NCBI GenBank assembly: GCA_034509925.1
Contig: CM067529.1
Location: 9,365,501-9,429,500 of the forward strand
Source: Hirudinaria manillensis
Taxonomy: Eukaryota; Annelida; Clitellata; Hirudinida; Hirudinidae
DNA: 64,000 nt
Direction: 5' to 3'
Shown: in pieces, positions 1-37,377 of the stretch
Layout of the letters: each line of letters starts with the position of its first letter
Numbering within the stretch: position 1 is the stretch's first letter
Translations under genes and position numbers: made by a program
Notes under the pieces: generated by a model
What the model was told of the DNA's origin: nothing
The model's database searches: none
The model's input: only the letters and a program-made list of their open reading frames with translations

Positions 1-114
1 TTAATGTTTTTATTCTAGCGCATTTAAAATATAAAAAAAATTATTATCGAGATTTTTCAGTCTTTTTTTCGTATTTTTTCTTTTCTGCTTCTGTCGCGAT
101 GGCTGCCGATTTGC

Positions 115-717
115 TTACGCGTACGGATGATATCTGAATTCTTTGAGAACGGAATTCATCATTTTGAATTCATTTCTCTTTTTGCAATGGAATCCATTGA
201 TTATCGAATCCTTGCATGTCGTTCCAGGCAGATTCTCTTCCTGCAAATCTAAATTTCGAACTCCGTGGCATAAGGCGTCGATTTTTTTGGCGGAATCTGT
301 TCGAATTGACTCGATAGCCTGATCGGCCATTCTGGCTAGCTCCTCGGCGAAAGAAGCCAAGAAGGCTTCTGTCTCGTGGTCTGGCCTGCTTTTCGGCAGT
401 GAATTGGGTCGCTCCTTGAGCAACTTTTTGTCTTCGATATACTGTCGAAGATGCGAATTTAATCTAAACGTGCCATTTTGTTTTTCTTTGTCAAGAATCA
501 GTTTACTCTCGACTAAGTGATTCTTGACTCCTTCCGTTTTAGATCGTTTTCTCAGGTCATATTTAAACGGCTGTTGTTTTGGCTTATCGATTCCGTACTG
601 ACTACCGCCGTACGTCGTTTTATGGTAGGAAATGTTATTCCTGAGAATCGAACTTTTCGAATGTCCAACCATTTTCGTATTAGTTGGTTGGAAAGCAATG
701 GCAGTTGTTCGAGTCAT
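115..717 (-). CDS. Array gene copy 1, long form, 200 aa
   Basis: Leftmost complete copy. It differs from the consensus long protein at residue 51, which is Phe instead of Trp. Its leader carries the AAGGTCAGC allele on the plus strand that is otherwise typical of short units. The family is described at copy 3 (2047-2649). Confidence 0.8.
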   Translation of the reverse strand: MTRTTAIAFQPTNTKMVGHSKSSILRNNISYHKTTYGGSQYGIDKPKQQPFKYDLRKRSKTEGVKNHLVESKLILDKEKQNGTFRLNSHLRQYIEDKKLLKERPNSLPKSRPDHETEAFLASFAEELARMADQAIESIRTDSAKKIDALCHGVRNLDLQEENLPGTTCKDSIINGFHCKKRNEFKMMNSVLKEFRYHPYA

Positions 718-928
718 AATATCAATTCACGGCCTTATCACGAGGAGAGACACCCGCACGAACGAAGGTCAGCGAAGAAATGACAAGCCTAGTCGATGCG
801 CCTACTTATATAGATTCTCTAGCGGCCCGTCGCTAAGCAACGGCGGCATGCAGCGCACGTGACGGCCACCGGGCGGAGTCACGCACTTAAATTTCTATGC
901 GATACGTAATTATTTGTCCATTATACAT

Positions 929-981
929 TTTATTTGATAATTTTAATTCAAGTACCGTTGTTATTTTTTAATGTTTTTATT
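929..981 (-). terminator. Array polyadenylation signals (representative unit)
   Basis: Two AATAAA hexamers on the minus strand, at 976-981 and 929-934, lie about 100 and 150 nt downstream of the stop codon at 1082. The same pair follows each copy. Their presence implies polyadenylated RNA polymerase II transcripts. A base next to the second signal is one of the array's recurring markers (ACATTTT or AAATTTT on the plus strand). Confidence 0.6.
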
Positions 982-1081
982 CTAGCGCATTTAAAATGTA
1001 AAAAAAATTATTATCGAGATTTTTCAGTCTTTTTTTCGTATTTTTTCTTTTCTGCTTCTGTCGCGATGGCTGCCGATTTGC

Positions 1082-1684
1082 TTACGCGTACGGATGATAT
1101 CTGAATTCTTTGAGAACGGAATTCATCATTTTGAATTCATTTCTCTTTTTGCAATGGAATCCATTGATTATCGAATCCTTGCATGTAGTTCCAGGCAGAT
1201 TCTCTTCCTGCAAATCTAAATTTCGAACTCCGTGGCATAAGGCGTCGATTTTTTTGACGGAATCTGTTCGAATTGACTCGATAGCCTGATCGGCCATTCT
1301 GGCTAGCTCCTCGGCGAAAGAAGCCAAGAAGGCTTCTGTCTCGTGGTCTGGCCTGCTTTTCGGCAGTGAATTGGGTCGCTCCTTGAGCAACTTTTTGTCT
1401 TCGATATACTGTCGAAGATGCGAATTTAATCTAAACGTGCCATTTTGTTTTTCTTTGTCAAGAATCAGTTTACTCTCGACTAAGTGATTCTTGACTCCTT
1501 CCGTTTTAGATCGTTTTCTCAGGTCATATTTCCACGGCTGTTGTTTTGGCTTATCGATTCCGTACTGACTACCGCCGTACGTCGTTTTATGGTAGGAAAT
1601 GTTATTCCTGAGAATCGAACTTTTCGAATGTCCAACCATTTTCGTATTAGTTGGTTGGAAAGCAATGGCAGTTGTTCGAGTCAT
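1082..1684 (-). CDS. Array gene copy 2, long form, Val143 variant
   Basis: Consensus apart from Val instead of Ala at residue 143. It also carries the silent ACT codon at Thr166 (consensus ACG). These two markers recur together in copies 21, 30, 36 and 37. Confidence 0.8.
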   Translation of the reverse strand: MTRTTAIAFQPTNTKMVGHSKSSILRNNISYHKTTYGGSQYGIDKPKQQPWKYDLRKRSKTEGVKNHLVESKLILDKEKQNGTFRLNSHLRQYIEDKKLLKERPNSLPKSRPDHETEAFLASFAEELARMADQAIESIRTDSVKKIDALCHGVRNLDLQEENLPGTTCKDSIINGFHCKKRNEFKMMNSVLKEFRYHPYA

Positions 1685-1764
1685 AATATCAATTCACGGC
1701 CTTATCACGAGGAGAGACACCCGCACGAACGAAGCTCAGCGAAGAAATGACAAGCCTAGTCGAT

Positions 1765-1852
1765 GCGCCTACTTATATAGATTCTCTAGCGGCCCGTCGC
1801 TAAGCAACGGCGGCATGCAGCGCACGTGACGGCCACCGGGCGGAGTCACGCA
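1765..1852 (-). promoter_or_regulatory. Array promoter (representative unit)
   Basis: Minus-strand core promoter of the gene at 1082-1684, repeated at the same offset before every copy of both forms. TATATAAG lies at 1772-1779, about 90 bp before the ATG, so transcription should start near 1,750. Upstream are an imperfect inverted repeat GTTGCTTAGCGAC (1796-1808; half-sites GTTGC/GCGAC, resembling an RFX X-box), an E-box CACGTG (1823-1828) and a TGACTCCGCCC stretch that looks like a GC box. The block is GC-rich inside AT-rich DNA. One marker base pair just upstream of the TATA box varies between copies (AGAGAATC or AGAGATTC). Factor names are inferred from motif shape only. Confidence 0.7.
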
Positions 1853-2046
1853 CTTAAATTTCTATGCGATACGTAATTATTTGTCCATTATACATTTTAT
1901 TTGATAATTTTAATTCAAGTACCGTTGTTATTTTTTAATGTTTTTATTCTAGCGCATTTAAAATATAAAAAAAATTATTATCGAGATTTTTCAGTCTTTT
2001 TTTCGTATTTTTCTTTCTGCTTCTGTCGCGATGGCTGCCGATTTGC

Positions 2047-2649
2047 TTACGCGTACGGATGATATCTGAATTCTTTGAGAACGGAATTCATCATTTTGAA
2101 TTCATTTCTCTTTTTGCAATGGAATCCATTGATTATCGAATCCTTGCATGTCGTTCCAGGCAGATTCTCTTCCTGCAAATCTAAATTTCGAACTCCGTGG
2201 CATAAGGCGTCGATTTTTTTGGCGGAATCTGTTCGAATTGACTCGATAGCCTGATCGGCCATTCTGGCTAGCTCCTCGGCGAAAGAAGCCAAGAAGGCTT
2301 CTGTCTCGTGGTCTGGCCTGCTTTTCGGCAGTGAATTGGGTCGCTCCTTGAGCAACTTTTTGTCTTCGATATACTGTCGAAGATGCGAATTTAATCTAAA
2401 CGTGCCATTTTGTTTTTCTTTGTCAAGAATCAGTTTACTCTCGACTAAGTGATTCTTGACTCCTTCCGTTTTAGATCGTTTTCTCAGGTCATATTTCCAC
2501 GGCTGTTGTTTTGGCTTATCGATTCCGTACTGACTACCGCCGTACGTCGTTTTATGGTAGGAAATGTTATTCCTGAGAATCGAACTTTTCGAATGTCCAA
2601 CCATTTTCGTATTAGTTGGTTGGAAAGCAATGGCAGTTGTTCGAGTCAT
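2047..2649 (-). CDS. Array gene copy 3, reference long form, unknown basic protein
   Basis: I do not recognise this 200-residue family. The ATG is the first in frame and follows the common leader. The product is basic: by my count about 36 Lys/Arg against 24 Asp/Glu. It has no signal peptide, no membrane segment and no histone-fold pattern. Visible parts are an N-terminal segment shared with the short form (1-22), a basic stretch with KYDLRKRSK (52-60), a Lys/Glu-rich middle (65-110), a likely amphipathic helix EAFLASFAEELAR (117-129), and a conserved C-terminal block with NLPGTTCKDSIINGF (162-176), CKK (178-180) and LKEFRYHPYA at the end. Cysteines sit at 150, 168 and 178. Twenty-two of 33 long copies encode exactly this sequence. 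TATA promoters and 38 of 40 open frames argue for expression. A nuclear or nucleic-acid role is only a guess from the charge. Confidence 0.82.
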   Translation of the reverse strand: MTRTTAIAFQPTNTKMVGHSKSSILRNNISYHKTTYGGSQYGIDKPKQQPWKYDLRKRSKTEGVKNHLVESKLILDKEKQNGTFRLNSHLRQYIEDKKLLKERPNSLPKSRPDHETEAFLASFAEELARMADQAIESIRTDSAKKIDALCHGVRNLDLQEENLPGTTCKDSIINGFHCKKRNEFKMMNSVLKEFRYHPYA

Positions 2650-3007
2650 AATATCAATTCACGGCCTTATCACGAGGAGAGACACCCGCACGAACGAAGC
2701 TCAGCGAAGAAATGACAAGCCTAGTCGATGCGCCTACTTATATAGATTCTCTAGCGGCCCGTCGCTAAGCAACGGCGGCATGCAGCGCACGTGACGGCCA
2801 CCGGGCGGAGTCACGCACTTAAATTTCTATGCGATACGTAATTCCATTATACATTTTATTTGATAATTTTAATTCAAGTACCGTTGTTATTTTTTAATGT
2901 TTTTATTCTAGCGCATTTAAAATATAAAAAAAATTATTATCGAGATTTTGCAGTCTTTTTTTCGTATTTTTCATTTTCTGCTTCTGTCGCGATGGCTGCC
3001 GATTTGC

Positions 3008-3409
3008 TTACGCGTACGGATGATATCTGAATTCTTTGAGAACCTTAATCCTTATTTTCAAATTATTTTTCTTTTTGCAAGGGAATCCATTGATTATCGA
3101 ATCCTTGCATGCCGTTCCAGGCAGATTCTGTTCTTTCATAACTGAGGTTCGAATATCTTTGCTTAAGACATTTATCGAGGAATCTATACATATTGGGGTC
3201 ACAGTCGCTTTGGACGTCTTTGCCAACTCTTCGTTGAAATCAAGCAGGAACGCTTTTAGCTTCGGATCGAGCTGGCGCATTTTAGATTTCTTCCGCTTTT
3301 GACATCTCCTTGCCTGATTTTTATTACTAGGAACTAGATCTTTCGAATGTTCAACCATTGTCTTGTTTATGTTAGTTGGTTGGGAAGCAACAGCAGTTAT
3401 TCGAGTCAT
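3008..3409 (-). CDS. Array gene copy 4, short form, 133 aa
   Basis: Consensus short protein. The unit to its right, copy 5, is also short, and the two encode identical proteins. The spacer between copies 3 and 4 lacks the ATTTGT found in other spacers, giving the smallest long-unit period (961 bp). Confidence 0.8.
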   Translation of the reverse strand: MTRITAVASQPTNINKTMVEHSKDLVPSNKNQARRCQKRKKSKMRQLDPKLKAFLLDFNEELAKTSKATVTPICIDSSINVLSKDIRTSVMKEQNLPGTACKDSIINGFPCKKKNNLKIRIKVLKEFRYHPYA

Positions 3410-3757
3410 AATATTAGGAGTAGAGACACCCGCACGAACGAAGGTCAGCGAAGAAATGACAAGCCTAGTCGATGCGCCTACTTATATAGATTCTCTAGCG
3501 GCCCGTCGCTAAGCAACGGCGGCATGCAGCGCACGTGACGGCCACCGGGCGGAGTCACGCACTTAAATTTCTATGCGATACGTAATTATTTGTCCATTAT
3601 ACATTTTATTTGATAATTTTAATTCAAGTACCGTTGTTATTTTTTAATGTTTTTATTCTAGCGCATTTAAAAAATAAAAAAAATTATTATCGAGATTTTT
3701 CAGTCTTTTTTTCGTATTTTTCATTTTCTGCTTCTGTCGCGATGGCTGCCGATTTGC

Positions 3758-4159
3758 TTACGCGTACGGATGATATCTGAATTCTTTGAGAACCTTAATC
3801 CTTATTTTCAAATTATTTTTCTTTTTGCAAGGGAATCCATTGATTATCGAATCCTTGCATGCCGTTCCAGGCAGATTCTGTTCTTTCATAACTGAGGTTC
3901 GAATATCTTTGCTTAAGACATTTATCGAGGAATCTATACATATTGGGGTCACAGTCGCTTTGGACGTCTTTGCCAACTCTTCGTTGAAATCAAGCAGGAA
4001 CGCTTTTAGCTTCGGATCGAGCTGGCGCATTTTAGATTTCTTCCGCTTTTGACATCTCCTTGCCTGATTTTTATTACTAGGAACTAGATCTTTCGAATGT
4101 TCAACCATTGTCTTGTTTATGTTAGTTGGTTGGGAAGCAACAGCAGTTATTCGAGTCAT
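3758..4159 (-). CDS. Array gene copy 5, reference short form, unknown basic protein
   Basis: This is a 133-residue paralogue of the long form. Residues 1-23 match the long N-terminus, with a two-codon insertion (PTNINKTMV against PTNTKMV). Residues 52-64 (KAFLLDFNEELAK) match the long-form helix, and 94-133 match its C-terminal block. The long form's 24-116 is replaced by an unrelated basic stretch of about 26 residues, including RRCQKRKKSK (34-43). Length differences between the forms keep the reading frame, which supports coding. Promoter and 3' flank are the same as in long units, so both forms should be expressed together. Function unknown. Confidence 0.8.
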   Translation of the reverse strand: MTRITAVASQPTNINKTMVEHSKDLVPSNKNQARRCQKRKKSKMRQLDPKLKAFLLDFNEELAKTSKATVTPICIDSSINVLSKDIRTSVMKEQNLPGTACKDSIINGFPCKKKNNLKIRIKVLKEFRYHPYA

Positions 4160-4506
4160 AATATTAGGAGTAGAGACACCCGCACGAACGAAGGTCAGCG
4201 AAGAAATGACAAGCCTAGTCGATGCGCCTACTTATATAGATTCTCTAGCGGCCCGTCGCTAAGCAACGGCGGCATGCAGCGCACGTGACGGCCACCGGGC
4301 GGAGTCACGCACTTAAATTTCTATGCGATACGTAATTATTTGTCCATTATACATTTTATTTGATAATTTTAATTCAAGTACCGTTGTTATTTTTTAATGT
4401 TTTTATTCTAGCGCATTTAAAATATAAAAAAAATTATTATCGAGATTTTTCAGTCTTTTTTTCGTATTTTTCCTTTCTGCTTCTGTCGCGATGGCTGCCG
4501 ATTTGC

Positions 4507-5109
4507 TTACGCGTACGGATGATATCTGAATTCTTTGAGAACGGAATTCATCATTTTGAATTCATTTCTCTTTTTGCAATGGAATCCATTGATTATCGAA
4601 TCCTTGCATGTCGTTCCAGGCAGATTCTCTTCCTGCAAATCTAAATTTCGAACTCCGTGGCATAAGGCGTCGATTTTTTTGGCGGAATCTGTTCGAATTG
4701 ACTCGATAGCCTGATCGGCCATTCTGGCTAGCTCCTCGGCGAAAGAAGCCAAGAAGGCTTCTGTCTCGTGGTCTGGCCTGCTTTTCGGCAGTGAATTGGG
4801 TCGCTCCTTGAGCAACTTTTTGTCTTCGATATACTGTCGAAGATGCGAATTTAATCTAAACGTGCCATTTTGTTTTTCTTTGTCAAGAATCAGTTTACTC
4901 TCGACTAAGTGATTCTTGACTCCTTCCGTTTTAGATCGTTTTCTCAGGTCATATTTCCACGGCTGTTGTTTTGGCTTATCGATTCCGTACTGACTACCGC
5001 CGTACGTCGTTTTATGGTAGGAAATGTTATTCCTGAGAATCGAACTTTTCGAATGTCCAACCATTTTCGTATTAGTTGGTTGGAAAGCAATGGCAGTTGT
5101 TCGAGTCAT
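4507..5109 (-). CDS. Array gene copy 6, long form, consensus
   Basis: Consensus protein, lying between short copies 5 and 7. Its 3' flank has a TTTTTCCTTTCTGC T-run variant shared with copies 28 and 29, which also follow short units. This suggests a duplicated short-long block. Confidence 0.8.
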   Translation of the reverse strand: MTRTTAIAFQPTNTKMVGHSKSSILRNNISYHKTTYGGSQYGIDKPKQQPWKYDLRKRSKTEGVKNHLVESKLILDKEKQNGTFRLNSHLRQYIEDKKLLKERPNSLPKSRPDHETEAFLASFAEELARMADQAIESIRTDSAKKIDALCHGVRNLDLQEENLPGTTCKDSIINGFHCKKRNEFKMMNSVLKEFRYHPYA

Positions 5110-5473
5110 AATATCAATTCACGGCCTTATCACGAGGAGAGACACCCGCACGAACGAAGCTCAGCGAAGAAATGACAAGCCTAGTCGATGCGCCTACTTA
5201 TATAGATTCTCTAGCGGCCCGTCGCTAAGCAACGGCGGCATGCAGCGCACGTGACGGCCACCGGGCGGAGTCACGCACTTAAATTTCTATGCGATACGTA
5301 ATTATTTGTCCATTATAAATTTTATTTGATAATTTTAATTCAAGTACCGTTGTTATTTTTTAATGTTTTTATTCTAGCGCATTTAAAATATAAAAAAAAT
5401 TATTATCGAGATTTTTCAGTCTTTTTTTCGTATTTTTTCTTTTCTGCTTCTGTCGCGATGGCTGCCGATTTGC

Positions 5474-5875
5474 TTACGCGTACGGATGATATCTGAATTC
5501 TTTGAGAACCTTAATCCTTATTTTCAAATTATTTTTCTTTTTGCAAGGGAATCCATTGATTATCGAATCCTTGCATGCCGTTCCAGGCAGATTCTGTTCT
5601 TTCATAACTGAGGTTCGAATATATTTGCTTAAGACATTTATCGAGGAATCTATACATATTGGGGTCACAGTCGCTTTGGACGTCTTTGCCAACTCTTCGT
5701 TGAAATCAAGCAGGAACGCTTTTAGCTTCGGATCGAGCTGGCGCATTTTAGATTTCTTCCGCTTTTGACATCTCCTTGCCTGATTTTTATTACTAGGAAC
5801 TAGATCTTTCGAATGTTCAACCATTGTCTTGTTTATGTTAGTTGGTTGGGAAGCAACAGCAGTTATTCGAGTCAT
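5474..5875 (-). CDS. Array gene copy 7, short form, Tyr85 variant
   Basis: Short protein with Asp85 replaced by Tyr, otherwise consensus. It is isolated between long copies 6 and 8. Confidence 0.8.
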   Translation of the reverse strand: MTRITAVASQPTNINKTMVEHSKDLVPSNKNQARRCQKRKKSKMRQLDPKLKAFLLDFNEELAKTSKATVTPICIDSSINVLSKYIRTSVMKEQNLPGTACKDSIINGFPCKKKNNLKIRIKVLKEFRYHPYA

Positions 5876-6224
5876 AATATTAGGAGTAGAGACACCCGCA
5901 CGAACGAAGGTCAGCGAAGAAATGACAAGCCTAGTCGATGCGCCTACTTATATAGATTCTCTAGCGGCCCGTCGCTAAGCAACGGCGGCATGCAGCGCAC
6001 GTGACGGCCACCGGGCGGAGTCACGCACTTAAATTTCTATGCGATACGTAATTATTTGTCCATTATACATTTTATTTGATAATTTTAATTCAAGTACCGT
6101 TGTTATTTTTTAATGTTTTTATTCTAGCGCATTTAAAATATAAAAAAAAATTATTATCGAGATTTTGCAGTCTTTTTTTCGTATTTTTCATTTTCTGCTT
6201 CTGTCGCGATGGCTGCCGATTTGC

Positions 6225-6827
6225 TTACGCGTACGGATGATATCTGAATTCTTTGAGAACCTTAATCCTTATTTTCAAATTATTTTTCTTTTTGCAATGG
6301 AATCCATTGATTATCGAATCCTTGCATGTCGTTCCAGGCAGATTCTCTTCCTGCAAATCTAAATTTCGAACTCCGTGGCATAAGGCGTCGATTTTTTTGG
6401 CGGAATCTGTTCGAATTGACTCGATAGCCTGATCGGCCATTCTGGCTAGCTCCTCGGCGAAAGAAGCCAAGAAGGCTTCTGTCTCGTGGTCTGGCCTGCT
6501 TTTCGGCAGTGAATTGGGTCGCTCCTTGAGCAACTTTTTGTCTTCGATATACTGTCGAAGATGCGAATTTAATCTAAACGTGCCATTTTGTTTTTCTTTG
6601 TCAAGAATCAGTTTACTCTCGACTAAGTGATTCTTGACTCCTTCCGTTTTAGATCGTTTTCTCAGGTCATATTTCCACGGCTGTTGTTTTGGCTTATCGA
6701 TTCCGTACTGACTACCGCCGTACGTCGTTTTATGGTAGGAAATGTTATTCCTGAGAATCGAACTTTTCGAATGTCCAACCATTTTCGTATTAGTTGGTTG
6801 GAAAGCAATGGCAGTTGTTCGAGTCAT
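6225..6827 (-). CDS. Array gene copy 8, long/short chimera
   Basis: The protein is long-form up to about residue 180. Residues 181-189 are then KNNLKIRIK, the short-form sequence, instead of RNEFKMMNS. The 3' flank (TTTTTCATTTTCTGC on the plus strand) is also short-type, so the exchange point lies within the last 30 codons. It has the rarer AGAGATTC allele upstream of the TATA box. Confidence 0.8.
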   Translation of the reverse strand: MTRTTAIAFQPTNTKMVGHSKSSILRNNISYHKTTYGGSQYGIDKPKQQPWKYDLRKRSKTEGVKNHLVESKLILDKEKQNGTFRLNSHLRQYIEDKKLLKERPNSLPKSRPDHETEAFLASFAEELARMADQAIESIRTDSAKKIDALCHGVRNLDLQEENLPGTTCKDSIINGFHCKKKNNLKIRIKVLKEFRYHPYA

Positions 6828-7191
6828 AATATCAATTCACGGCCTTATCACGAGGAGAGACACCCGCACGAACGAAGCTCAGCGAAGAAATGACAAGCCT
6901 AGTCGATGCGCCTACTTATATAGAATCTCTAGCGGCCCGTCGCTAAGCAACGGCGGCATGCAGCGCACGTGACGGCCACCGGGCGGAGTCACGCACTTAA
7001 ATTTCTATGCGATACGTAATTATTTGTCCATTATACATTTTATTTGATAATTTTAATTCAAGTACCGTTGTTATTTTTTAATGTTTTTATTCTAGCGCAT
7101 TTAAAATATAAAAAAAATTATTATCGAGATTTTTCAGTCTTTTTTTCGTATTTTTTCTTTTCTGCTTCTGTCGCGATGGCTGCCGATTTGC

Positions 7192-7794
7192 TTACGCGTA
7201 CGGATGATATCTGAATTCTTTGAGAACGGAATTCATCATTTTGAATTCATTTCTCTTTTTGCAATGGAATCCATTGATTATCGAATCCTTGCATGTCGTT
7301 CCAGGCAGATTCTCTTCCTGCAAATCTAAATTTCGAACTCCGTGGCATAAGGCGTCGATTTTTTTGGCGGAATCTGTTCGAATTGACTCGATAGCCTGAT
7401 CGGCCATTCTGGCTAGCTCCTCGGCGAAAGAAGCCAAGAAGGCTTCTGTCTCGTGGTCTGGCCTGCTTTTCGGCAGTGAATTGGGTCGCTCCTTGAGCAA
7501 CTTTTTGTCTTCGATATACTGTCGAAGATGCGAATTTAATCTAAACGTGCCATTTTGTTTTTCTTTGTCAAGAATCAGTTTACTCTCGACTAAGTGATTC
7601 TTGACTCCTTCCGTTTTAGATCGTTTTCTCAGGTCATATTTCCACGGCTGTTGTTTTGGCTTATCGATTCCGTACTGACTACCGCCGTACGTCGTTTTAT
7701 GGTAGGAAATGTTATTCCTGAGAATCGAACTTTTCGAATGTCCAACCATTTTCGTATTAGTTGGTTGGAAAGCAATGGCAGTTGTTCGAGTCAT
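7192..7794 (-). CDS. Array gene copy 9, long form, consensus
   Basis: Consensus protein with Thr166 as ACG. Right-hand spacer has the ACATTTT marker. Confidence 0.8.
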   Translation of the reverse strand: MTRTTAIAFQPTNTKMVGHSKSSILRNNISYHKTTYGGSQYGIDKPKQQPWKYDLRKRSKTEGVKNHLVESKLILDKEKQNGTFRLNSHLRQYIEDKKLLKERPNSLPKSRPDHETEAFLASFAEELARMADQAIESIRTDSAKKIDALCHGVRNLDLQEENLPGTTCKDSIINGFHCKKRNEFKMMNSVLKEFRYHPYA

Positions 7795-8158
7795 AATATC
7801 AATTCACGGCCTTATCACGAGGAGAGACACCCGCACGAACGAAGCTCAGCGAAGAAATGACAAGCCTAGTCGATGCGCCTACTTATATAGATTCTCTAGC
7901 GGCCCGTCGCTAAGCAACGGCGGCATGCAGCGCACGTGACGGCCACCGGGCGGAGTCACGCACTTAAATTTCTATGCGATACGTAATTATTTGTCCATTA
8001 TACATTTTATTTGATAATTTTAATTCAAGTACCGTTGTTATTTTTTAATGTTTTTATTCTAGCGCATTTAAAATATAAAAAAAATTATTATCGAGATTTT
8101 TCAGTCTTTTTTTCGTATTTTTTCTTTTCTGCTTCTGTCGCGATGGCTGCCGATTTGC

Positions 8159-12774: not shown

Positions 12775-13377
12775 TTACGCGTACGGATGATATCTGAATT
12801 CTTTGAGAACCTTAATCCTTATTTTCAAATTATTTCTCTTTTTGCAATGGAATCCATTGATTATCGAATCCTTGCATGTCGTTCCAGGCAGATTCTCTTC
12901 CTGCAAATCTAAATTTCGAACTCCGTGGCATAAGGCGTCGATTTTTTTGGCGGAATCTGTTCGAATTGACTCGATAGCCTGATCGGCCATTCTGGCTAGC
13001 TCCTCGGCGAAAGAAGCCAAGAAGGCTTCTGTCTCGTGGTCTGGCCTGCTTTTCGGCAGTGAATTGGGTCGCTCCTTGAGCAACTTTTTGTCTTCGATAT
13101 ACTGTCGAAGATGCGAATTTAATCTAAACGTGCCATTTTGTTTTTCTTTGTCAAGAATCAGTTTACTCTCGACTAAGTGATTCTTGACTCCTTCCGTTTT
13201 AGATCGTTTTCTCAGGTCATATTTCCACGGCTGTTGTTTTGGCTTATCGATTCCGTACTGACTACCGCCGTACGTCGTTTTATGGTAGGAAATGTTATTC
13301 CTGAGAATCGAACTTTTCGAATGTCCAACCATTTTCGTATTAGTTGGTTGGAAAGCAATGGCAGTTGTTCGAGTCAT
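12775..13377 (-). CDS. Array gene copy 15, long/short chimera
   Basis: Long form to residue 181 (Arg, long-type), then NNLKIRIK as in the short form. The switch point is one codon later than in copy 8, so the two chimeras arose or were trimmed separately. Short copy 14 lies immediately to its left. Confidence 0.8.
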   Translation of the reverse strand: MTRTTAIAFQPTNTKMVGHSKSSILRNNISYHKTTYGGSQYGIDKPKQQPWKYDLRKRSKTEGVKNHLVESKLILDKEKQNGTFRLNSHLRQYIEDKKLLKERPNSLPKSRPDHETEAFLASFAEELARMADQAIESIRTDSAKKIDALCHGVRNLDLQEENLPGTTCKDSIINGFHCKKRNNLKIRIKVLKEFRYHPYA

Positions 13378-21478: not shown

Positions 21479-22081
21479 TTACGCGTACGGATGATATCTG
21501 AATTCTTTGAGAACCTTAATCCTTATTTTCAAATTATTTTTCTTTTTGCAAGGGAATCCATTGATTATCGAATCCTTGCATGCCGTTCCAGGCAGATTCT
21601 CTTCCTGCAAATCTAAATTTCGAACTCCGTGGCATAAGGCGTCGATTTTTTTGGCGGAATCTGTTCGAATTGACTCGATAGCCTGATCGGCCATTCTGGC
21701 TAGCTCCTCGGCGAAAGAAGCCAAGAAGGCTTCTGTCTCGTGGTCTGGCCTGCTTTTCGGCAGTGAATTGGGTCGCTCCTTGAGCAACTTTTTGTCTTCG
21801 ATATACTGTCGAAGATGCGAATTTAATCTAAACGTGCCATTTTGTTTTTCTTTGTCAAGAATCAGTTTACTCTCGACTAAGTGATTCTTGACTCCTTCCG
21901 TTTTAGATCGTTTTCTCAGGTCATATTTCCACGGCTGTTGTTTTGGCTTATCGATTCCGTACTGACTACCGCCGTACGTCGTTTTATGGTAGGAAATGTT
22001 ATTCCTGAGAATCGAACTTTTCGAATGTCCAACCATTTTCGTATTAGTTGGTTGGAAAGCAATGGCAGTTGTTCGAGTCAT
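21479..22081 (-). CDS. Array gene copy 24, long/short chimera
   Basis: The longest short-type tail of the three chimeras. Thr167Ala and His177Pro, and then KNNLKIRIK (181-189), are all short-form residues. The exchange point lies near codon 164, just inside the conserved NLPGT block, where both forms are identical in DNA. Confidence 0.8.
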   Translation of the reverse strand: MTRTTAIAFQPTNTKMVGHSKSSILRNNISYHKTTYGGSQYGIDKPKQQPWKYDLRKRSKTEGVKNHLVESKLILDKEKQNGTFRLNSHLRQYIEDKKLLKERPNSLPKSRPDHETEAFLASFAEELARMADQAIESIRTDSAKKIDALCHGVRNLDLQEENLPGTACKDSIINGFPCKKKNNLKIRIKVLKEFRYHPYA

Positions 22082-25877: not shown

Positions 25878-26479
25878 TTACGCGTACGGATGATATCTGA
25901 ATTCTTTGAGAACGGAATTCATCATTTTGAATTCATTTCTCTTTTTGCAATGGAATCCATTGATTATCGAATCCTTGCATGTCGTTCCAGGCAGATTCTC
26001 TTCCTGCAAATCTAAATTTCGAACTCCGTGGCATATGGCGTCGATTTTTTGGCGGAATCTGTTCGAATTGACTCGATAGCCTGATCGGCCATTCTGGCTA
26101 GCTCCTCGGCGAAAGAAGCCAAGAAGGCTTCTGTCTCGTGGTCTGGCCTGCTTTTCGGCAGTGAATTGGGTCGCTCCTTGAGCAACTTTTTGTCTTCGAT
26201 ATACTGTCGAAGATGCGAATTTAATCTAAACGTGCCATTTTGTTTTTCTTTGTCAAGAATCAGTTTACTCTCGACTAAGTGATTCTTGACTCCTTCCGTT
26301 TTAGATCGTTTTCTCAGGTCATATTTCCACGGCTGTTGTTTTGGCTTATCGATTCCGTACTGACTACCGCCGTACGTCGTTTTATGGTAGGAAATGTTAT
26401 TCCTGAGAATCGAACTTTTCGAATGTCCAACCATTTTCGTATTAGTTGGTTGGAAAGCAATGGCAGTTGTTCGAGTCAT
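25878..26479 (-). pseudogene. Array gene copy 29, long form, frameshifted
   Basis: One T is missing from a seven-T run near 26,043-26,050 (plus strand). This shifts the frame after residue 144 and ends the protein at about 155 residues, stop at 26012. The full homologous span is 602 bp instead of 603. Promoter and upstream sequence are intact, so the transcript would encode a protein lacking the conserved C-terminal block. A sequencing error in a homopolymer is possible, although a nearby A-to-T change (CATATGGCG) also marks this copy. Confidence 0.75.
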
Positions 26480-28414: not shown

Positions 28415-28778
28415 AATATCAATTCACGGCCTTATCACGAGGAGAGACACCCGCACGAACGAAGCTCAGCGAAGAAATGACAAGCCTAGTCGATGCGCCT
28501 ACTTATATAGATTCTCTAGCGGCCCGTCGCTAAGCAACGGCGGCATGCAGCGCACGTGACGGCCACCGGGCGGAGTCACGCACTTAAATTTCTATGCGAT
28601 ACGTAATTATTTGTCCATTATAAATTTTATTTGATAATTTTAATTCAAGTACCGTTGTTATTTTTTAATGTTTTTATTCTAGCGCATTTAAAATATAAAA
28701 AAAATTATTATCGAGATTTTTCAGTCTTTTTTTCGTATTTTTTCTTTTCTGCTTCTGTCGCGATGGCTGCCGATTTGC

Positions 28779-29381: not shown

Positions 29382-29745
29382 AATATCAATTCACGGCCTT
29401 ATCACGAGGAGAGACACCCGCACGAACGAAGCTCAGCGAAGAAATGACAAGCCTAGTCGATGCGCCTACTTATATAGAATCTCTAGCGGCCCGTCGCTAA
29501 GCAACGGCGGCATGCAGCGCACGTGACGGCCACCGGGCGGAGTCACGCACTTAAATTTCTATGCGATACGTAATTATTTGTCCATTATACATTTTATTTG
29601 ATAATTTTAATTCAAGTACCGTTGTTATTTTTTAATGTTTTTATTCTAGCGCATTTAAAATATAAAAAAAATTATTATCGAGATTTTTCAGTCTTTTTTT
29701 CGTATTTTTTCTTTTCTGCTTCTGTCGCGATGGCTGCCGATTTGC

Positions 29746-30348
29746 TTACGCGTACGGATGATATCTGAATTCTTTGAGAACGGAATTCATCATTTTGAAT
29801 TCATTTCTCTTTTTGCAATGGAATCCATTGATTATCGAATCCTTGCATGTAGTTCCAGGCAGATTCTCTTCCTGCAAATCTAAATTTCGAACTCCGTGGC
29901 ATAAGGCGTCGATTTTTTTGGCGGAATCTGTTCGAATTGACTCGATAGCCTGATCGGCCATTCTGGCTAGCTCCTCGGCGAAAGAAGCCAAGAAGGCTTC
30001 TGTCTCGTGGTCTGGCCTGCTTTTCGGCAGTGAATTGGGTCGCTCCTTGAGCAACTTTTTGTCTTCGATATACTGTCGAAGATGCGAATTTAATCTAAAC
30101 GTGCCATTTTGTTTTTCTTTGTCAAGAATCAGTTTACTCTCGACTAAGTGATTCTTGACTCCTTCCGTTTTAGATCGTTTTCTCAGGTCATATTTCCACG
30201 GCTGTTGTTTTGGCTTATCGATTCCGTACTGACTACCGCCGTACGTCGTTTTATGGTAGGAAATGTTATTCCTGAGAATCGAACTTTTCGAATGTCCAAC
30301 CATTTTCGTATTAGTTGGTTGGAAAGCAATGGCAGTTGTTCGAGTCAT
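29746..30348 (-). CDS. Array gene copy 33, long form, consensus
   Basis: Consensus protein with ACT at Thr166. Its place after copy 32 mirrors copy 23 after copy 22. Confidence 0.8.
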   Translation of the reverse strand: MTRTTAIAFQPTNTKMVGHSKSSILRNNISYHKTTYGGSQYGIDKPKQQPWKYDLRKRSKTEGVKNHLVESKLILDKEKQNGTFRLNSHLRQYIEDKKLLKERPNSLPKSRPDHETEAFLASFAEELARMADQAIESIRTDSAKKIDALCHGVRNLDLQEENLPGTTCKDSIINGFHCKKRNEFKMMNSVLKEFRYHPYA

Positions 30349-30712
30349 AATATCAATTCACGGCCTTATCACGAGGAGAGACACCCGCACGAACGAAGCT
30401 CAGCGAAGAAATGACAAGCCTAGTCGATGCGCCTACTTATATAGATTCTCTAGCGGCCCGTCGCTAAGCAACGGCGGCATGCAGCGCACGTGACGGCCAC
30501 CGGGCGGAGTCACGCACTTAAATTTCTATGCGATACGTAATTATTTGTCCATTATAAATTTTATTTGATAATTTTAATTCAAGTACCGTTGTTATTTTTT
30601 AATGTTTTTATTCTAGCGCATTTAAAATATAAAAAAAATTATTATCGAGATTTTTCAGTCTTTTTTTCGTATTTTTTCTTTTCTGCTTCTGTCGCGATGG
30701 CTGCCGATTTGC

Positions 30713-31315
30713 TTACGCGTACGGATGATATCTGAATTCTTTGAGAACGGAATTCATCATTTTGAATTCATTTCTCTTTTTGCAATGGAATCCATTGATT
30801 ATCGAATCCTTGCATGTCGTTCCAGGCAGATTCTCTTCCTGCAAATCTAAATTTCGAACTCCGTGGCATAAGGCGTCGATTTTTTTGGCGGAATCTGTTC
30901 GAATTGACTCGATAGCCTGATCGGCCATTCTGGCTAGCTCCTCGGCGAAAGAAGCCAAGAAGGCTTCTGTCTCGTGGTCTGGCCTGCTTTTCGGCAGTGA
31001 ATTGGGTCGCTCCTTGAGCAACTTTTTGTCTTCGATATACTGTCGAAGATGCGAATTTAATCTAAACGTGCCATTTTGTTTTTCTTTGTCAAGAATCAGT
31101 TTACTCTCGACTAAGTGATTCTTGACTCCTTCCGTTTTAGATCGTTTTCTCAGGTCATATTTCCACGGCTGTTGTTTTGGCTTATCGATTCCGTACTGAC
31201 TACCGCCGTACGTCGTTTTATGGTAGGAAATGTTATTCCTGAGAATCGAACTTTTCGAATGTCCAACCATTTTCGTATTAGTTGGTTGGAAAGCAATGGC
31301 AGTTGTTCGAGTCAT
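30713..31315 (-). CDS. Array gene copy 34, long form, consensus
   Basis: Consensus protein with the AGAGATTC promoter allele and AAATTTT spacer. Confidence 0.8.
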   Translation of the reverse strand: MTRTTAIAFQPTNTKMVGHSKSSILRNNISYHKTTYGGSQYGIDKPKQQPWKYDLRKRSKTEGVKNHLVESKLILDKEKQNGTFRLNSHLRQYIEDKKLLKERPNSLPKSRPDHETEAFLASFAEELARMADQAIESIRTDSAKKIDALCHGVRNLDLQEENLPGTTCKDSIINGFHCKKRNEFKMMNSVLKEFRYHPYA

Positions 31316-31679
31316 AATATCAATTCACGGCCTTATCACGAGGAGAGACACCCGCACGAACGAAGCTCAGCGAAGAAATGACAAGCCTAGTCGATGCGCC
31401 TACTTATATAGAATCTCTAGCGGCCCGTCGCTAAGCAACGGCGGCATGCAGCGCACGTGACGGCCACCGGGCGGAGTCACGCACTTAAATTTCTATGCGA
31501 TACGTAATTATTTGTCCATTATAAATTTTATTTGATAATTTTAATTCAAGTACCGTTGTTATTTTTTAATGTTTTTATTCTAGCGCATTTAAAATATAAA
31601 AAAAATTATTATCGAGATTTTTCAGTCTTTTTTTCGTATTTTTTCTTTTCTGCTTCTGTCGCGATGGCTGCCGATTTGC

Positions 31680-32282
31680 TTACGCGTACGGATGATATCT
31701 GAATTCTTTGAGAACGGAATTCATCATTTTGAATTCATTTCTCTTTTTGCAATGGAATCCATTGATTATCGAATCCTTGCATGTCGTTCCAGGCAGATTC
31801 TCTTCCTGCAAATCTAAATTTCGAACTCCGTGGCATAAGGCGTCGATTTTTTTGGCGGAATCTGTTCGAATTGACTCGATAGCCTGATCGGCCATTCTGG
31901 CTAGCTCCTCGGCGAAAGAAGCCAAGAAGGCTTCTGTCTCGTGGTCTGGCCTGCTTTTCGGCAGTGAATTGGGTCGCTCCTTGAGCAACTTTTTGTCTTC
32001 GATATACTGTCGAAGATGCGAATTTAATCTAAACGTGCCATTTTGTTTTTCTTTGTCAAGAATCAGTTTACTCTCGACTAAGTGATTCTTGACTCCTTCC
32101 GTTTTAGATCGTTTTCTCAGGTCATATTTCCACGGCTGTTGTTTTGGCTTATCGATTCCGTACTGACTACCGCCGTACGTCGTTTTATGGTAGGAAATGT
32201 TATTCCTGAGAATCGAACTTTTCGAATGTCCAACCATTTTCGTATTAGTTGGTTGGAAAGCAATGGCAGTTGTTCGAGTCAT
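31680..32282 (-). CDS. Array gene copy 35, long form, consensus
   Basis: Consensus protein with consensus markers throughout. Confidence 0.8.
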   Translation of the reverse strand: MTRTTAIAFQPTNTKMVGHSKSSILRNNISYHKTTYGGSQYGIDKPKQQPWKYDLRKRSKTEGVKNHLVESKLILDKEKQNGTFRLNSHLRQYIEDKKLLKERPNSLPKSRPDHETEAFLASFAEELARMADQAIESIRTDSAKKIDALCHGVRNLDLQEENLPGTTCKDSIINGFHCKKRNEFKMMNSVLKEFRYHPYA

Positions 32283-32646
32283 AATATCAATTCACGGCCT
32301 TATCACGAGGAGAGACACCCGCACGAACGAAGCTCAGCGAAGAAATGACAAGCCTAGTCGATGCGCCTACTTATATAGATTCTCTAGCGGCCCGTCGCTA
32401 AGCAACGGCGGCATGCAGCGCACGTGACGGCCACCGGGCGGAGTCACGCACTTAAATTTCTATGCGATACGTAATTATTTGTCCATTATAAATTTTATTT
32501 GATAATTTTAATTCAAGTACCGTTGTTATTTTTTAATGTTTTTATTCTAGCGCATTTAAAATATAAAAAAAATTATTATCGAGATTTTTCAGTCTTTTTT
32601 TCGTATTTTTTCTTTTCTGCTTCTGTCGCGATGGCTGCCGATTTGC

Positions 32647-33249
32647 TTACGCGTACGGATGATATCTGAATTCTTTGAGAACGGAATTCATCATTTTGAA
32701 TTCATTTCTCTTTTTGCAATGGAATCCATTGATTATCGAATCCTTGCATGTAGTTCCAGGCAGATTCTCTTCCTGCAAATCTAAATTTCGAACTCCGTGG
32801 CATAAGGCGTCGATTTTTTTGACGGAATCTGTTCGAATTGACTCGATAGCCTGATCGGCCATTCTGGCTAGCTCCTCGGCGAAAGAAGCCAAGAAGGCTT
32901 CTGTCTCGTGGTCTGGCCTGCTTTTCGGCAGTGAATTGGGTCGCTCCTTGAGCAACTTTTTGTCTTCGATATACTGTCGAAGATGCGAATTTAATCTAAA
33001 CGTGCCATTTTGTTTTTCTTTGTCAAGAATCAGTTTACTCTCGACTAAGTGATTCTTGACTCCTTCCGTTTTAGATCGTTTTCTCAGGTCATATTTCCAC
33101 GGCTGTTGTTTTGGCTTATCGATTCCGTACTGACTACCGCCGTACGTCGTTTTATGGTAGGAAATGTTATTCCTGAGAATCGAACTTTTCGAATGTCCAA
33201 CCATTTTCGTATTAGTTGGTTGGAAAGCAATGGCAGTTGTTCGAGTCAT
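32647..33249 (-). CDS. Array gene copy 36, long form, Val143 variant
   Basis: Val143 with silent ACT at Thr166. Adjacent copy 37 has the same variants, a likely local duplication. Confidence 0.8.
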   Translation of the reverse strand: MTRTTAIAFQPTNTKMVGHSKSSILRNNISYHKTTYGGSQYGIDKPKQQPWKYDLRKRSKTEGVKNHLVESKLILDKEKQNGTFRLNSHLRQYIEDKKLLKERPNSLPKSRPDHETEAFLASFAEELARMADQAIESIRTDSVKKIDALCHGVRNLDLQEENLPGTTCKDSIINGFHCKKRNEFKMMNSVLKEFRYHPYA

Positions 33250-33613
33250 AATATCAATTCACGGCCTTATCACGAGGAGAGACACCCGCACGAACGAAGC
33301 TCAGCGAAGAAATGACAAGCCTAGTCGATGCGCCTACTTATATAGATTCTCTAGCGGCCCGTCGCTAAGCAACGGCGGCATGCAGCGCACGTGACGGCCA
33401 CCGGGCGGAGTCACGCACTTAAATTTCTATGCGATACGTAATTATTTGTCCATTATAAATTTTATTTGATAATTTTAATTCAAGTACCGTTGTTATTTTT
33501 TAATGTTTTTATTCTAGCGCATTTAAAATATAAAAAAAATTATTATCGAGATTTTTCAGTCTTTTTTTCGTATTTTTTCTTTTCTGCTTCTGTCGCGATG
33601 GCTGCCGATTTGC

Positions 33614-34216
33614 TTACGCGTACGGATGATATCTGAATTCTTTGAGAACGGAATTCATCATTTTGAATTCATTTCTCTTTTTGCAATGGAATCCATTGAT
33701 TATCGAATCCTTGCATGTAGTTCCAGGCAGATTCTCTTCCTGCAAATCTAAATTTCGAACTCCGTGGCATAAGGCGTCGATTTTTTTGACGGAATCTGTT
33801 CGAATTGACTCGATAGCCTGATCGGCCATTCTGGCTAGCTCCTCGGCGAAAGAAGCCAAGAAGGCTTCTGTCTCGTGGTCTGGCCTGCTTTTCGGCAGTG
33901 AATTGGGTCGCTCCTTGAGCAACTTTTTGTCTTCGATATACTGTCGAAGATGCGAATTTAATCTAAACGTGCCATTTTGTTTTTCTTTGTCAAGAATCAG
34001 TTTACTCTCGACTAAGTGATTCTTGACTCCTTCCGTTTTAGATCGTTTTCTCAGGTCATATTTCCACGGCTGTTGTTTTGGCTTATCGATTCCGTACTGA
34101 CTACCGCCGTACGTCGTTTTATGGTAGGAAATGTTATTCCTGAGAATCGAACTTTTCGAATGTCCAACCATTTTCGTATTAGTTGGTTGGAAAGCAATGG
34201 CAGTTGTTCGAGTCAT
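33614..34216 (-). CDS. Array gene copy 37, long form, Val143 variant
   Basis: Same protein as copy 36, but with the AGAGATTC allele upstream of the TATA box. Confidence 0.8.
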   Translation of the reverse strand: MTRTTAIAFQPTNTKMVGHSKSSILRNNISYHKTTYGGSQYGIDKPKQQPWKYDLRKRSKTEGVKNHLVESKLILDKEKQNGTFRLNSHLRQYIEDKKLLKERPNSLPKSRPDHETEAFLASFAEELARMADQAIESIRTDSVKKIDALCHGVRNLDLQEENLPGTTCKDSIINGFHCKKRNEFKMMNSVLKEFRYHPYA

Positions 34217-34580
34217 AATATCAATTCACGGCCTTATCACGAGGAGAGACACCCGCACGAACGAAGCTCAGCGAAGAAATGACAAGCCTAGTCGATGCGC
34301 CTACTTATATAGAATCTCTAGCGGCCCGTCGCTAAGCAACGGCGGCATGCAGCGCACGTGACGGCCACCGGGCGGAGTCACGCACTTAAATTTCTATGCG
34401 ATACGTAATTATTTGTCCATTATAAATTTTATTTGATAATTTTAATTCAAGTACCGTTGTTATTTTTTAATGTTTTTATTCTAGCGCATTTAAAATATAA
34501 AAAAAATTATTATCGAGATTTTTCAGTCTTTTTTTCGTATTTTTTCTTTTCTGCTTCTGTCGCGATGGCTGCCGATTTGC

Positions 34581-35183
34581 TTACGCGTACGGATGATATC
34601 TGAATTCTTTGAGAACGGAATTCATCATTTTGAATTCATTTCTCTTTTTGCAATGGAATCCATTGATTATCGAATCCTTGCATGTAGTTCCAGGCAGATT
34701 CTCTTCCTGCAAATCTAAATTTCGAACTCCGTGGCATAAGGCGTCGATTTTTTTGGCGGAATCTGTTCGAATTGACTCGATAGCCTGATCGGCCATTCTG
34801 GCTAGCTCCTCGGCGAAAGAAGCCAAGAAGGCTTCTGTCTCGTGGTCTGGCCTGCTTTTCGGCAGTGAATTGGGTCGCTCCTTGAGCAACTTTTTGTCTT
34901 CGATATACTGTCGAAGATGCGAATTTAATCTAAACGTGCCATTTTGTTTTTCTTTGTCAAGAATCAGTTTACTCTCGACTAAGTGATTCTTGACTCCTTC
35001 CGTTTTAGATCGTTTTCTCAGGTCATATTTCCACGGCTGTTGTTTTGGCTTATCGATTCCGTACTGACTACCGCCGTACGTCGTTTTATGGTAGGAAATG
35101 TTATTCCTGAGAATCGAACTTTTCGAATGTCCAACCATTTTCGTATTAGTTGGTTGGAAAGCAATGGCAGTTGTTCGAGTCAT
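34581..35183 (-). CDS. Array gene copy 38, long form, consensus
   Basis: Consensus protein with ACT at Thr166 and the AGAGATTC promoter allele. Confidence 0.8.
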   Translation of the reverse strand: MTRTTAIAFQPTNTKMVGHSKSSILRNNISYHKTTYGGSQYGIDKPKQQPWKYDLRKRSKTEGVKNHLVESKLILDKEKQNGTFRLNSHLRQYIEDKKLLKERPNSLPKSRPDHETEAFLASFAEELARMADQAIESIRTDSAKKIDALCHGVRNLDLQEENLPGTTCKDSIINGFHCKKRNEFKMMNSVLKEFRYHPYA

Positions 35184-35547
35184 AATATCAATTCACGGCC
35201 TTATCACGAGGAGAGACACCCGCACGAACGAAGCTCAGCGAAGAAATGACAAGCCTAGTCGATGCGCCTACTTATATAGAATCTCTAGCGGCCCGTCGCT
35301 AAGCAACGGCGGCATGCAGCGCACGTGACGGCCACCGGGCGGAGTCACGCACTTAAATTTCTATGCGATACGTAATTATTTGTCCATTATAAATTTTATT
35401 TGATAATTTTAATTCAAGTACCGTTGTTATTTTTTAATGTTTTTATTCTAGCGCATTTAAAATATAAAAAAAATTATTATCGAGATTTTTCAGTCTTTTT
35501 TTCGTATTTTTTCTTTTCTGCTTCTGTCGCGATGGCTGCCGATTTGC

Positions 35548-36150
35548 TTACGCGTACGGATGATATCTGAATTCTTTGAGAACGGAATTCATCATTTTGA
35601 ATTCATTTCTCTTTTTGCAATGGAATCCATTGATTATCGAATCCTTGCATGTAGTTCCAGGCAGATTCTCTTCCTGCAAATCTAAATTTCGAACTCCGTG
35701 GCATAAGGCGTCGATTTTTTTGGCGGAATCTGTTCGAATTGACTCGATAGCCTGATCGGCCATTCTGGCTAGCTCCTCGGCGAAAGAAGCCAAGAAGGCT
35801 TCTGTCTCGTGGTCTGGCCTGCTTTTCGGCAGTGAATTGGGTCGCTCCTTGAGCAACTTTTTGTCTTCGATATACTGTCGAAGATGCGAATTTAATCTAA
35901 ACGTGCCATTTTGTTTTTCTTTGTCAAGAATCAGTTTACTCTCGACTAAGTGATTCTTGACTCCTTCCGTTTTAGATCGTTTTCTCAGGTCATATTTCCA
36001 CGGCTGTTGTTTTGGCTTATCGATTCCGTACTGACTACCGCCGTACGTCGTTTTATGGTAGGAAATGTTATTCCTGAGAATCGAACTTTTCGAATGTCCA
36101 ACCATTTTCGTATTAGTTGGTTGGAAAGCAATGGCAGTTGTTCGAGTCAT
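35548..36150 (-). CDS. Array gene copy 39, long form, consensus
   Basis: Consensus protein, the last intact copy before the right border. Its leader has a private A-to-T change (ACGATGCTCAG on the plus strand). Confidence 0.8.
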   Translation of the reverse strand: MTRTTAIAFQPTNTKMVGHSKSSILRNNISYHKTTYGGSQYGIDKPKQQPWKYDLRKRSKTEGVKNHLVESKLILDKEKQNGTFRLNSHLRQYIEDKKLLKERPNSLPKSRPDHETEAFLASFAEELARMADQAIESIRTDSAKKIDALCHGVRNLDLQEENLPGTTCKDSIINGFHCKKRNEFKMMNSVLKEFRYHPYA

Positions 36151-36514
36151 AATATCAATTCACGGCCTTATCACGAGGAGAGACACCCGCACGAACGATG
36201 CTCAGCGAAGAAATGACAAGCCTAGTCGATGCGCCTACTTATATAGATTCTCTAGCGGCCCGTCGCTAAGCAACGGCGGCATGCAGCGCACGTGACGGCC
36301 ACCGGGCGGAGTCACGCACTTAAATTTCTATGCGATACGTAATTATTTGTCCATTATAAATTTTATTTGATAATTTTAATTCAAGTACCGTTGTTATTTT
36401 TTAATGTTTTTATTCTAGAGCTTTTAAAATATAAAAAAAATTATTATCGAGATTTTTCAGTCTTTTTTTCGTATTTTTCATTTTCTGCTTCTGTCGCGAT
36501 GGCTGCCGATTTGC

Positions 36515-36916
36515 TTACGCGTACGGATGATATCTGAATTCTTTGAGAACCTTAATCCTTATTTTCAAATTATTTTTCTTTTTGCAAGGGAATCCATTGA
36601 TTATCGAATCCTTTCATGCCGTTCCAGGCAGATTCTGTTCTTTCATAACTGAGGTTCGAATATCTTTGCTTAAGACATTTATCGAGGAATCTATACGTAT
36701 TGGGGTCACAGTCGCTTTGGACGTCTTTGCCAACTCTTCGTTGAAATCAAGCAGGAACGCTTTTAGCTTCGGATCGAGCTGGCGCATTTTAGATTTCTTC
36801 CGCTTTTGACATCTCCTTGCCTGATTTTTATTACTAGGAACTAGATCTTTCGAATGTTCAACCATTGTCTTTTTTATGTTAGTTGGTTGGGAAGCAATAG
36901 CAGTTATTCGAGTCAT
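36515..36916 (-). pseudogene. Array gene copy 40, short form, nonsense codon
   Basis: Rightmost copy. A TGC-to-TGA change converts Cys101 to a stop, leaving 100 residues (stop at 36614) and removing the conserved C-terminal block. It also has Val7Ile, Asn15Lys and Cys74Arg. Decay at an array edge is expected, because edge units take little part in homogenisation. The promoter still looks intact, so a truncated product remains possible. Confidence 0.75.
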
Positions 36917-37080
36917 AATATTAGGAGTAAGGACACCCGCACGAACGAAGGTCAGCGAAGAAATGACAAGCCTAGTCGATGCGCCTACTTATATAGATTC
37001 TCTAGCGGCCCGTCGCTAAGCAACGGCGGCATGCAGCGCACGTGACGGCCACCGGGCGGAGTCACGCACTTAAATTTCTA

Positions 37081-37377
37081 TGCGATACTGTCCCTTATAA
37101 ATTTTATTTGATAATTTTAATTCAAGTATAATTGTTATTTTTTGATGTTTTTATTCTAGCGCATTTAAAATATAAAAAAAATATTATTTTTCAGTTTTTT
37201 TTTTTTCGTATTTTTCCTTTTCTGCTTCTTCTAATCAACGATTTCATTTCCTCTTTGACCGTAGATTTAATCAGTCCGGGCATCTCCTCTGTGATCGTCT
37301 CCCTTATAGACCTCAAAAACTTTGCCTTTATTTTATCAGCCAAATTATCAACTGTAGCCTCATCAGTTATGTATTAG
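37081..37377 (-). other. Divergent relic unit at the array border with a different frame
   Basis: Plus-strand bases 37,081 to about 37,227 resemble the array's spacer and 3' flank, but with many changes. From 37,228 the sequence no longer matches either unit form. On the minus strand a frame stays open from about 37,370 to a TAA near 37,160, without an ATG at its start. It reads as a Lys/Glu-rich likely helix including NLADKIKAKF, ITEEMPGLIK and KEEMKSLIRRSRKGK, then runs through sequence that is 3' UTR in the normal units. This may be the end of a third, older gene form or a coincidental frame. I see no promoter for it. Confidence 0.45.

Follow-up and report, generated by a model that had tools for sequence, protein, structure and literature searches.

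We analysed a window of 64,000 nucleotides from the leech Hirudinaria manillensis (C4:9365501-9429500; the genome comprises 148.4 Mb in 23 contigs) that carries array A, a tandem array of a gene of no recognised family, and found that it belongs to a set of at least six arrays in the same genome, distributed over four contigs (arrays A, B, C, C13, D, and E). The chances appear slightly better than even that array A is a member of a dosage battery of at least six short intronless gene arrays, most likely serving early embryos. Because there are at least six arrays, encoding mostly nuclear gene-control proteins and for the most part behind a similar strong promoter, the gene set looks built for a joint burst of protein at one life stage. 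At the locus, arrays A and B are joined, array C lies ~60 kb away, and the copies of array A are homogenised.

Array A and its product

Delimiting the units of array A by a promoter anchor gave 40 tandem units on the minus strand of the window, of which 33 are long (mostly 967 bp, encoding 200 amino acids (aa)) and 7 are short (~750 bp, 133 aa). An earlier note on this DNA had claimed at least 40 same-strand units, complete frames in 38 of 40 units, and one identical protein from 22 of the 33 long copies, and each of these counts was reproduced. The first base of the window is the window's edge, not a boundary of the array, which continues for another 30 kb to the left and comprises 76 units in all (C4:9335.2-9402.5 kb). 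Frames are intact in 68 of the 76 (44 long, of 200 aa, and 24 short, of 133 aa), and the commonest long protein is that of 31 of the 47 long units; the copy number is the one given by the assembly and may be inexact. Tandem Repeats Finder, whose period limit is 500 bp, listed no array at this locus.

The earlier note had also ascribed a TATA promoter and polyadenylation signals to each unit, and this description held. The TATA element TATATAAG is present in 39 of the 40 window units, a count that is partly by construction because the promoter anchor itself includes most of the TATA, and the TCATTT[CT] start site is present in all 40. AATAAA or ATTAAA follows the stop codon in 40 of 40 window units and in 75 of 76 overall. 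The features within the window are as follows.

1..37227, minus strand: array A within the window, 40 tandem units (33 long, 7 short), running on to the left to C4:9335.2 kb
2047..2649, minus strand: representative long frame, 200 aa, encoding the commonest protein
3008..3409, minus strand: representative short frame, 133 aa, with the N-terminus, EELA region, and C-terminal LKEFRYHPYA common to the long form
2709..2715, minus strand: start-site element TCATTTC, which in the representative long unit follows TATATAAG at 21 bp
2737..2744, minus strand: TATATAAG of the representative long unit
2761..2773, minus strand: GTTGCTTAGCGAC, the GTTGC-N3-GCRAC palindrome of the representative long unit; the diverged paralogues have GTTGCGCGGCAAC
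26012..26479, minus strand: broken long copy, frameshift, 155 aa
36614..36916, minus strand: broken short copy at the right-hand edge of the array, stop, 100 aa
6225..6827, minus strand: long copy with the short-form 3' end (NNLKIRIKV), likewise at 12775-13377 and 21479-22081

The palindrome is X-box-like, a term used here, like a cilia/RFX reading of the site, as a label only. Three long copies in the window have a short-type 3' end, which marks exchange between the long and short forms; outside the window, three further units join a short start to a long-sized body, and their frame is broken at 64 aa.

We conclude, with reservations, that array A probably encodes a real but fast-evolving and weakly constrained protein. 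Four diverged paralogues, lying 560 kb away, encode proteins of 182-186 aa with ~36-39% identity, and frames and promoters are whole in all four. The ratio of non-synonymous to synonymous substitution rates (dN/dS) between the long form and a far copy was 0.55 (bootstrap 95% interval 0.35-0.83, with a share of 0.0005 of bootstraps at or above 1), and that between the short form and a far copy was 0.54 (0.24-0.93). Further, when the 201 substitutions between the long form and the far copy were placed at random, only 0.2% of trials were free of stops. Because gaps in the codon alignments necessarily come in multiples of three, their lengths were left unused as evidence.

Other measures pull in the opposite direction. 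The dN/dS between long and short forms was 0.67 (0.40-1.12), an interval that includes 1, and two far copies compared with each other gave 1.3, a value resting on six differences. The differences between the long form and the far copy fall almost equally on codon positions 1, 2, and 3 (71, 63, and 67). Variants within the array comprise 16 non-synonymous and 7 synonymous changes among the 44 long copies; among the 24 intact short ones the corresponding numbers are 27 and 1 (13 and 0 when one scrambled copy is set aside), against a ratio of ~3.7:1 expected from the numbers of sites. By these measures, the coding constraint on array A is weak. The earlier note's reading of the gene as protein-coding is supported with reservations: the dN/dS of 0.55 and the frame kept open in comparison with diverged paralogues speak for it, but the codon positions and the short-copy variants do not. 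The note had named two marks of a non-coding satellite, the lack of RNA or peptide from any copy and equal substitution at all codon positions; the sequence shows half of this, with almost equal differences at the three positions and nearly all short-copy variants non-synonymous.

The protein is basic (isoelectric points 9.6 and 10.1), and the claim that it is unrecognised was borne out, no curated cut-off or credible score being reached in any of four collections. The best match in Pfam was bZIP_1 at 15.8 bits (cut-off 27.6); in NCBIfam the best was that of the short form to NF040661 (19.3 bits, E 0.0011, cut-off 50); the best E values were 0.059 in PHROGs and 0.76 in PDB, with a profile E of 0.38 in the latter. 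Pfam gave neither an Elongin A nor a casein-kinase beta match. On these scores the sequence has no credible match in Pfam, NCBIfam, PHROGs, or PDB. A viral origin was also considered and rejected: there was no relative in viral_contigs, and of four stretches that fit a peptide pattern, none was confirmed.

Companion arrays and their promoters

Array B adjoins array A on the left, on the same strand (C4:9287-9335 kb), and the leftmost array A unit is fused to an array B unit. It consists of units of ~1,020 bp, with at least 45 full-length copies and 47 promoters; the gene has no introns, and in its 227-aa C2H2 protein Pfam zf-C2H2 matches seven stretches (seven fingers). Compared with its two single-copy paralogues on C5, the array B protein shows a ratio of the proportions of non-synonymous and synonymous differences (pN/pS) of 0.43-0.44 with third positions most variable, although, as a counterweight, the synonymous sites are saturated. 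At the left edge of the array (C4:9273.5-9283.5 kb) are decayed or partial zinc-finger copies, two of them with stops.

On the other side of array A, to its right, array C runs on the plus strand and has 28 units with a spacing of ~1.52 kb, 27 of which match positions 1-206 of a 216-aa query, all at 97%; the unit that was read whole has a 342-aa Elongin A-like frame. A second Elongin A-like array, on C13, has 10 units with ~41% identity to the array C query. The Elongin_A domain (PF06881) scored 41.8 bits in array C and 52.2 bits in the C13 array, both above the curated cut-off of 29.8, and dN/dS between the two arrays was 0.36 (0.18-0.58). One array C copy adjoins the far cluster of array A paralogues. 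In addition, the 3' flank of the last far paralogue continues as a 3' flank of the Elongin A (array C) type (C4:9955.5-9956.8 kb), which shows that units of different arrays once lay side by side.

Arrays D and E were found by the octamer element described below; the genome survey as a whole consisted of adjacency, protein, and promoter-motif searches. Array D, on C12, has 31 full-length copies in units of ~1,494 bp and encodes an intronless RBBP6/Mpe1-like protein with the order DWNN, zinc knuckle, RING. The first two domains score above their cut-offs (PF08783, 69.4 bits; PF13696, 31.7 bits), and the RING scores below its own (PF13920, 18.2 bits, cut-off 27) but is matched by the RBBP6 RING in PDB (3ztg) at 1.1e-10; the PDB matches are to RBBP6 and Mpe1. 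One further copy at 92% lies elsewhere on C12, and there are edge fragments and relatives on C7. Array E, on C5, has at least 28 full-length copies, 25 of them without stops, in two blocks, plus partial copies, and encodes a C2H2 protein of ~205 aa. A THAP domain was considered for this protein and rejected; it is called only C2H2 because Pfam gives no THAP at E 0.01. Pfam found no histone domain in the array A, B, C, C13, D, and E proteins scanned, nor a homeobox domain above its cut-off. By domain homology, the array proteins with recognisable domains are thus shown to be of nuclear-regulator types (two C2H2, two Elongin A-like, and one RBBP6/Mpe1-like).

In five of the six arrays, as judged from the units examined, the TATA element and the TCATT start site are 20-21 bp apart; in the array C promoter, TATATAAA and TCATTTC are separated by 20 bp. 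A genome-wide search for TATATAAGNAGG-N17-TCATTT with at most one mismatch returned 130 sites, compared with 3 for the reversed control, and among the 100 of these matches that were listed, 47 belong to array B, 51 to array A, and 2 lie elsewhere. The 170-bp promoters of array A and its far copies are 67.6% identical, whereas their coding DNA reaches 62% and their 3' flank 60%; the same comparison of unrelated promoters gave 49% (array A long unit and array C) and 42.5% (array A far copy and array C). The longest identical blocks shared by array A and its far copies are at the TATA and the start site, and shorter ones are at a GC-box and at CACGTG.

A second element, the octamer-bearing CTCATTTGCATATGAAT, is common to array B and its two C5 paralogues, in opposite orientations. 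With at most one mismatch it occurs at 148 sites genome-wide, compared with 1 for the control. Among the 100 of these 148 matches that were listed, 77 are exact, including 39 in array B, 33 in array D, and 2 at the C5 paralogues; 31 of the 33 array D sites stand 121-122 bp before a full-length array D frame, and another exact site precedes an array D-related copy ~270 kb from the array. In arrays D and E and the array B paralogues the arrangement is CTCATTTGCATATSAAT-N12-TATAWAAG: CTCATTTGCATATSAAT stands exactly 12 bp before the TATA in 7 of 7 promoters examined (arrays D and E and both array B paralogues), and the spacer sequence differs. In array B itself, the octamer element is inverted and lies 48 bp from the TATA. 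A CTCATTTGCATATTAAT site was seen on C1 (within the first 300 bp of C1:1754051-1754750), upstream of a possible ordinary first exon with a GTTGC-type palindrome, and is possibly another use of the octamer element.

Function of the arrays and alternative explanations

If array A belongs to a dosage battery, several arrays would be switched on together by a POU-type factor, by the histone H2B programme, or by both, and high copy number, the lack of introns, and strong TATA/start-site promoters would yield much mRNA fast from few nuclei, with unequal exchange and gene conversion keeping the copies of each array alike. Judged by homology, the C2H2 products would act in transcription, the Elongin A-like ones in elongation, and the RBBP6/Mpe1-like one in 3'-end processing or ubiquitination; the array A protein would presumably serve this programme as a nuclear accessory. 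Their time of action would most likely be early zygotic transcription in cleavage embryos. POU factors drive zygotic genome activation in vertebrates. In the leech Helobdella austinensis, zygotic transcription begins in the first cell cycle, and the upregulated zygotic candidates include histone, zinc-finger, and hypothetical genes (PMC10970458). Because of this early onset, we regard early zygotic expression as most likely the leading stage, with the male germline next. The proposal in the earlier note that the protein is needed in bulk at one stage thereby gains circumstantial backing, array A being one of at least six arrays, five of which have TATA-start-site promoters in the units examined.

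A bolder form of this reading is tentative, and we would put it at clearly less than an even chance: the lineage may have built a second histone-like regulon, in which an orphan protein and regulators other than histones, acting in transcription, elongation, and the processing of mRNA 3' ends, are encoded by high-copy tandem arrays under strong TATA promoters. Several of its members have an octamer of the H2B type, and the early zygote would thereby make in one burst the machinery for starting its genome, in convergence with vertebrate cleavage-stage arrays.

The promoter evidence also holds points that tell against a common programme. The octamer occurs 0 times in the 66.9 kb of array A and in none of the 3.6 kb of array C examined (two promoters), and the 4 kb examined of the C13 array contained neither the octamer nor the TATA-TCATT pair; one switch common to all the arrays therefore does not exist. 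Of the exact octamer sites, two have neither a TATA nor an array near them, and the two one-mismatch sites that were sampled belong to no array promoter. A spacing of ~30 bp from TATA to start is generic, and the likeness of the promoters is partly ascertainment because what led to the arrays was adjacency, a protein search, or the promoter element itself.

The best-surviving alternative, which we regard as rather unlikely, is that the arrays are a male-germline battery expressed in spermatogenesis. Retrogene-derived, intronless, amplified nuclear genes are common in spermatogenesis, and the basic, fast-evolving array A protein and the intronless, amplified genes described here would suit that setting; the X-box-like site of array A could fit cilia or sperm. 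However, octamer-TATA promoters of the H2B type suit S-phase or cleavage better, a point that is not decisive.

Less probable still is conflict-driven amplification, in which array A and its neighbours would be drivers and suppressors or selfish loci escalating in copy number, as in Stellate. High copy number, the array A dN/dS of 0.55-0.67, the non-synonymous excess among short copies, the chimaeric copies, and the zinc-finger array next door would all be in keeping with it. However, arrays B and C look constrained (pN/pS 0.43-0.44, and dN/dS 0.36 in comparison with C13), and one conflict hardly explains several unrelated families arrayed on four contigs. Leeches are hermaphrodites (PMC10970458), which rules out sex-ratio drive but leaves room for competition between gametes.

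Neutral amplification, in which unequal crossing-over of the usual kind at sites prone to recombination would suffice and dosage would play no part, is very unlikely: it would account for homogenised arrays with junctions and chimaeras, but not for the keeping of frames in 68 of 76 units of array A, at least 45 of array B, 27 of 28 of array C, and 31 matches of array D, or for similar promoters in five arrays (partly ascertainment). Least credible of all is a reading of array A as a non-coding satellite whose open frame is fortuitous, since the near-equal codon positions and the want of a synonymous excess among short-copy variants are outweighed by the long-far dN/dS, the rarity of stop-free random trials, the whole frames and promoters of four diverged paralogues, and the known domains encoded by neighbouring arrays.

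Among known systems, primate ELOA3 (Elongin A3) is the nearest published case; there, intronless Elongin A retrogenes form a homogenised tandem array of variable copy number, and the authors also raise embryonic expression (PMC10664989). Arrays C and C13 are of the same protein class, and array C is likewise intronless, tandem, and homogenised. Unlike ELOA3, the leech Elongin A-like arrays are presumably of independent, annelid origin and share their genome with zinc-finger, RBBP6-like, and orphan-gene arrays, most of the set having similar promoters, and the array A protein has no Elongin A match in Pfam.

The arrays also resemble those of replication-dependent histone genes in their high-copy, intronless, short TATA units. 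A possible further likeness is CTCATTTGCATA next to the TATA, reminiscent of the vertebrate histone H2B promoter box, although the octamer is absent from array A and from the examined stretches of array C. The arrays differ in encoding non-histone proteins, one gene per unit, and in their 3' ends: ten of ten stretches tested have AATAAA/ATTAAA signals, and none of the ten matches the histone stem-loop consensus. The vertebrate arrays of zygotic genome activation (DUX4/Dux, Zscan4, miR-430, and zebrafish znf clusters) are similarly tandem and include zinc-finger and retrogene regulators, but the leech array proteins scanned have no homeobox domain above cut-off, and they belong to another phylum and other genes. 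Drosophila Stellate/Su(Ste) shares with array A the form of tandem homogenised protein-coding repeats, but array A shows no casein-kinase II beta homology in Pfam.

Non-histone high-copy protein-coding arrays have mostly been studied singly. Among the open PubMed Central (PMC) papers that searches listed, we found no report of several unrelated nuclear-type gene arrays in one genome, most with similar promoters, and, in their titles and the starts of abstracts, none of these arrays in a leech. Here several unrelated genes of nuclear-regulator type have been amplified within a single genome, mostly behind promoters of one style, and this makes the dosage explanation testable; leech embryos are experimentally tractable. 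If the arrays do fire jointly in the early embryo, vertebrate-like zygotic-activation arrays, including an ELOA3-like one, would have evolved independently in annelids.

Surrounding genes and other genomic observations

Between arrays A and C the window contains two long intronless frames, both on the minus strand: a DHX15-like DEAH-box helicase of 768 aa (37619-39925) and an LRR-Ig protein of 840 aa (51029-53551). Part of the DNA-binding domain of a Tc5-type transposase (PF03221) lies at 40419-40971, minus strand, between array A and the unique genes.

Published leech assemblies measure 157-204 Mb (PMC10087013, PMC12820476), not far above the 148 Mb of the assembly used here. A genome of this size is small for an annelid. 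Contig C23 is mitochondrial, with COX1 identified by Pfam under the invertebrate code and the order cox1-cox2-atp8-cox3-nad6-cob read from translations. This is the gene order of annelids, and together with the TTAGGG repeats described below it led to the rejection of an insect host, which had been considered. A COX1 match at C9:3026446-3027786, with 9 TGA codons and a score equal to that of the mitochondrial contig, would be either a nuclear copy or an assembly duplication. Finally, TTAGGG repeats gave 2,805 overlapping exact 24-mer matches, compared with 0 for the reversed control, and among the first 100 matches listed, all of them on C1, there are runs near both ends of that contig.

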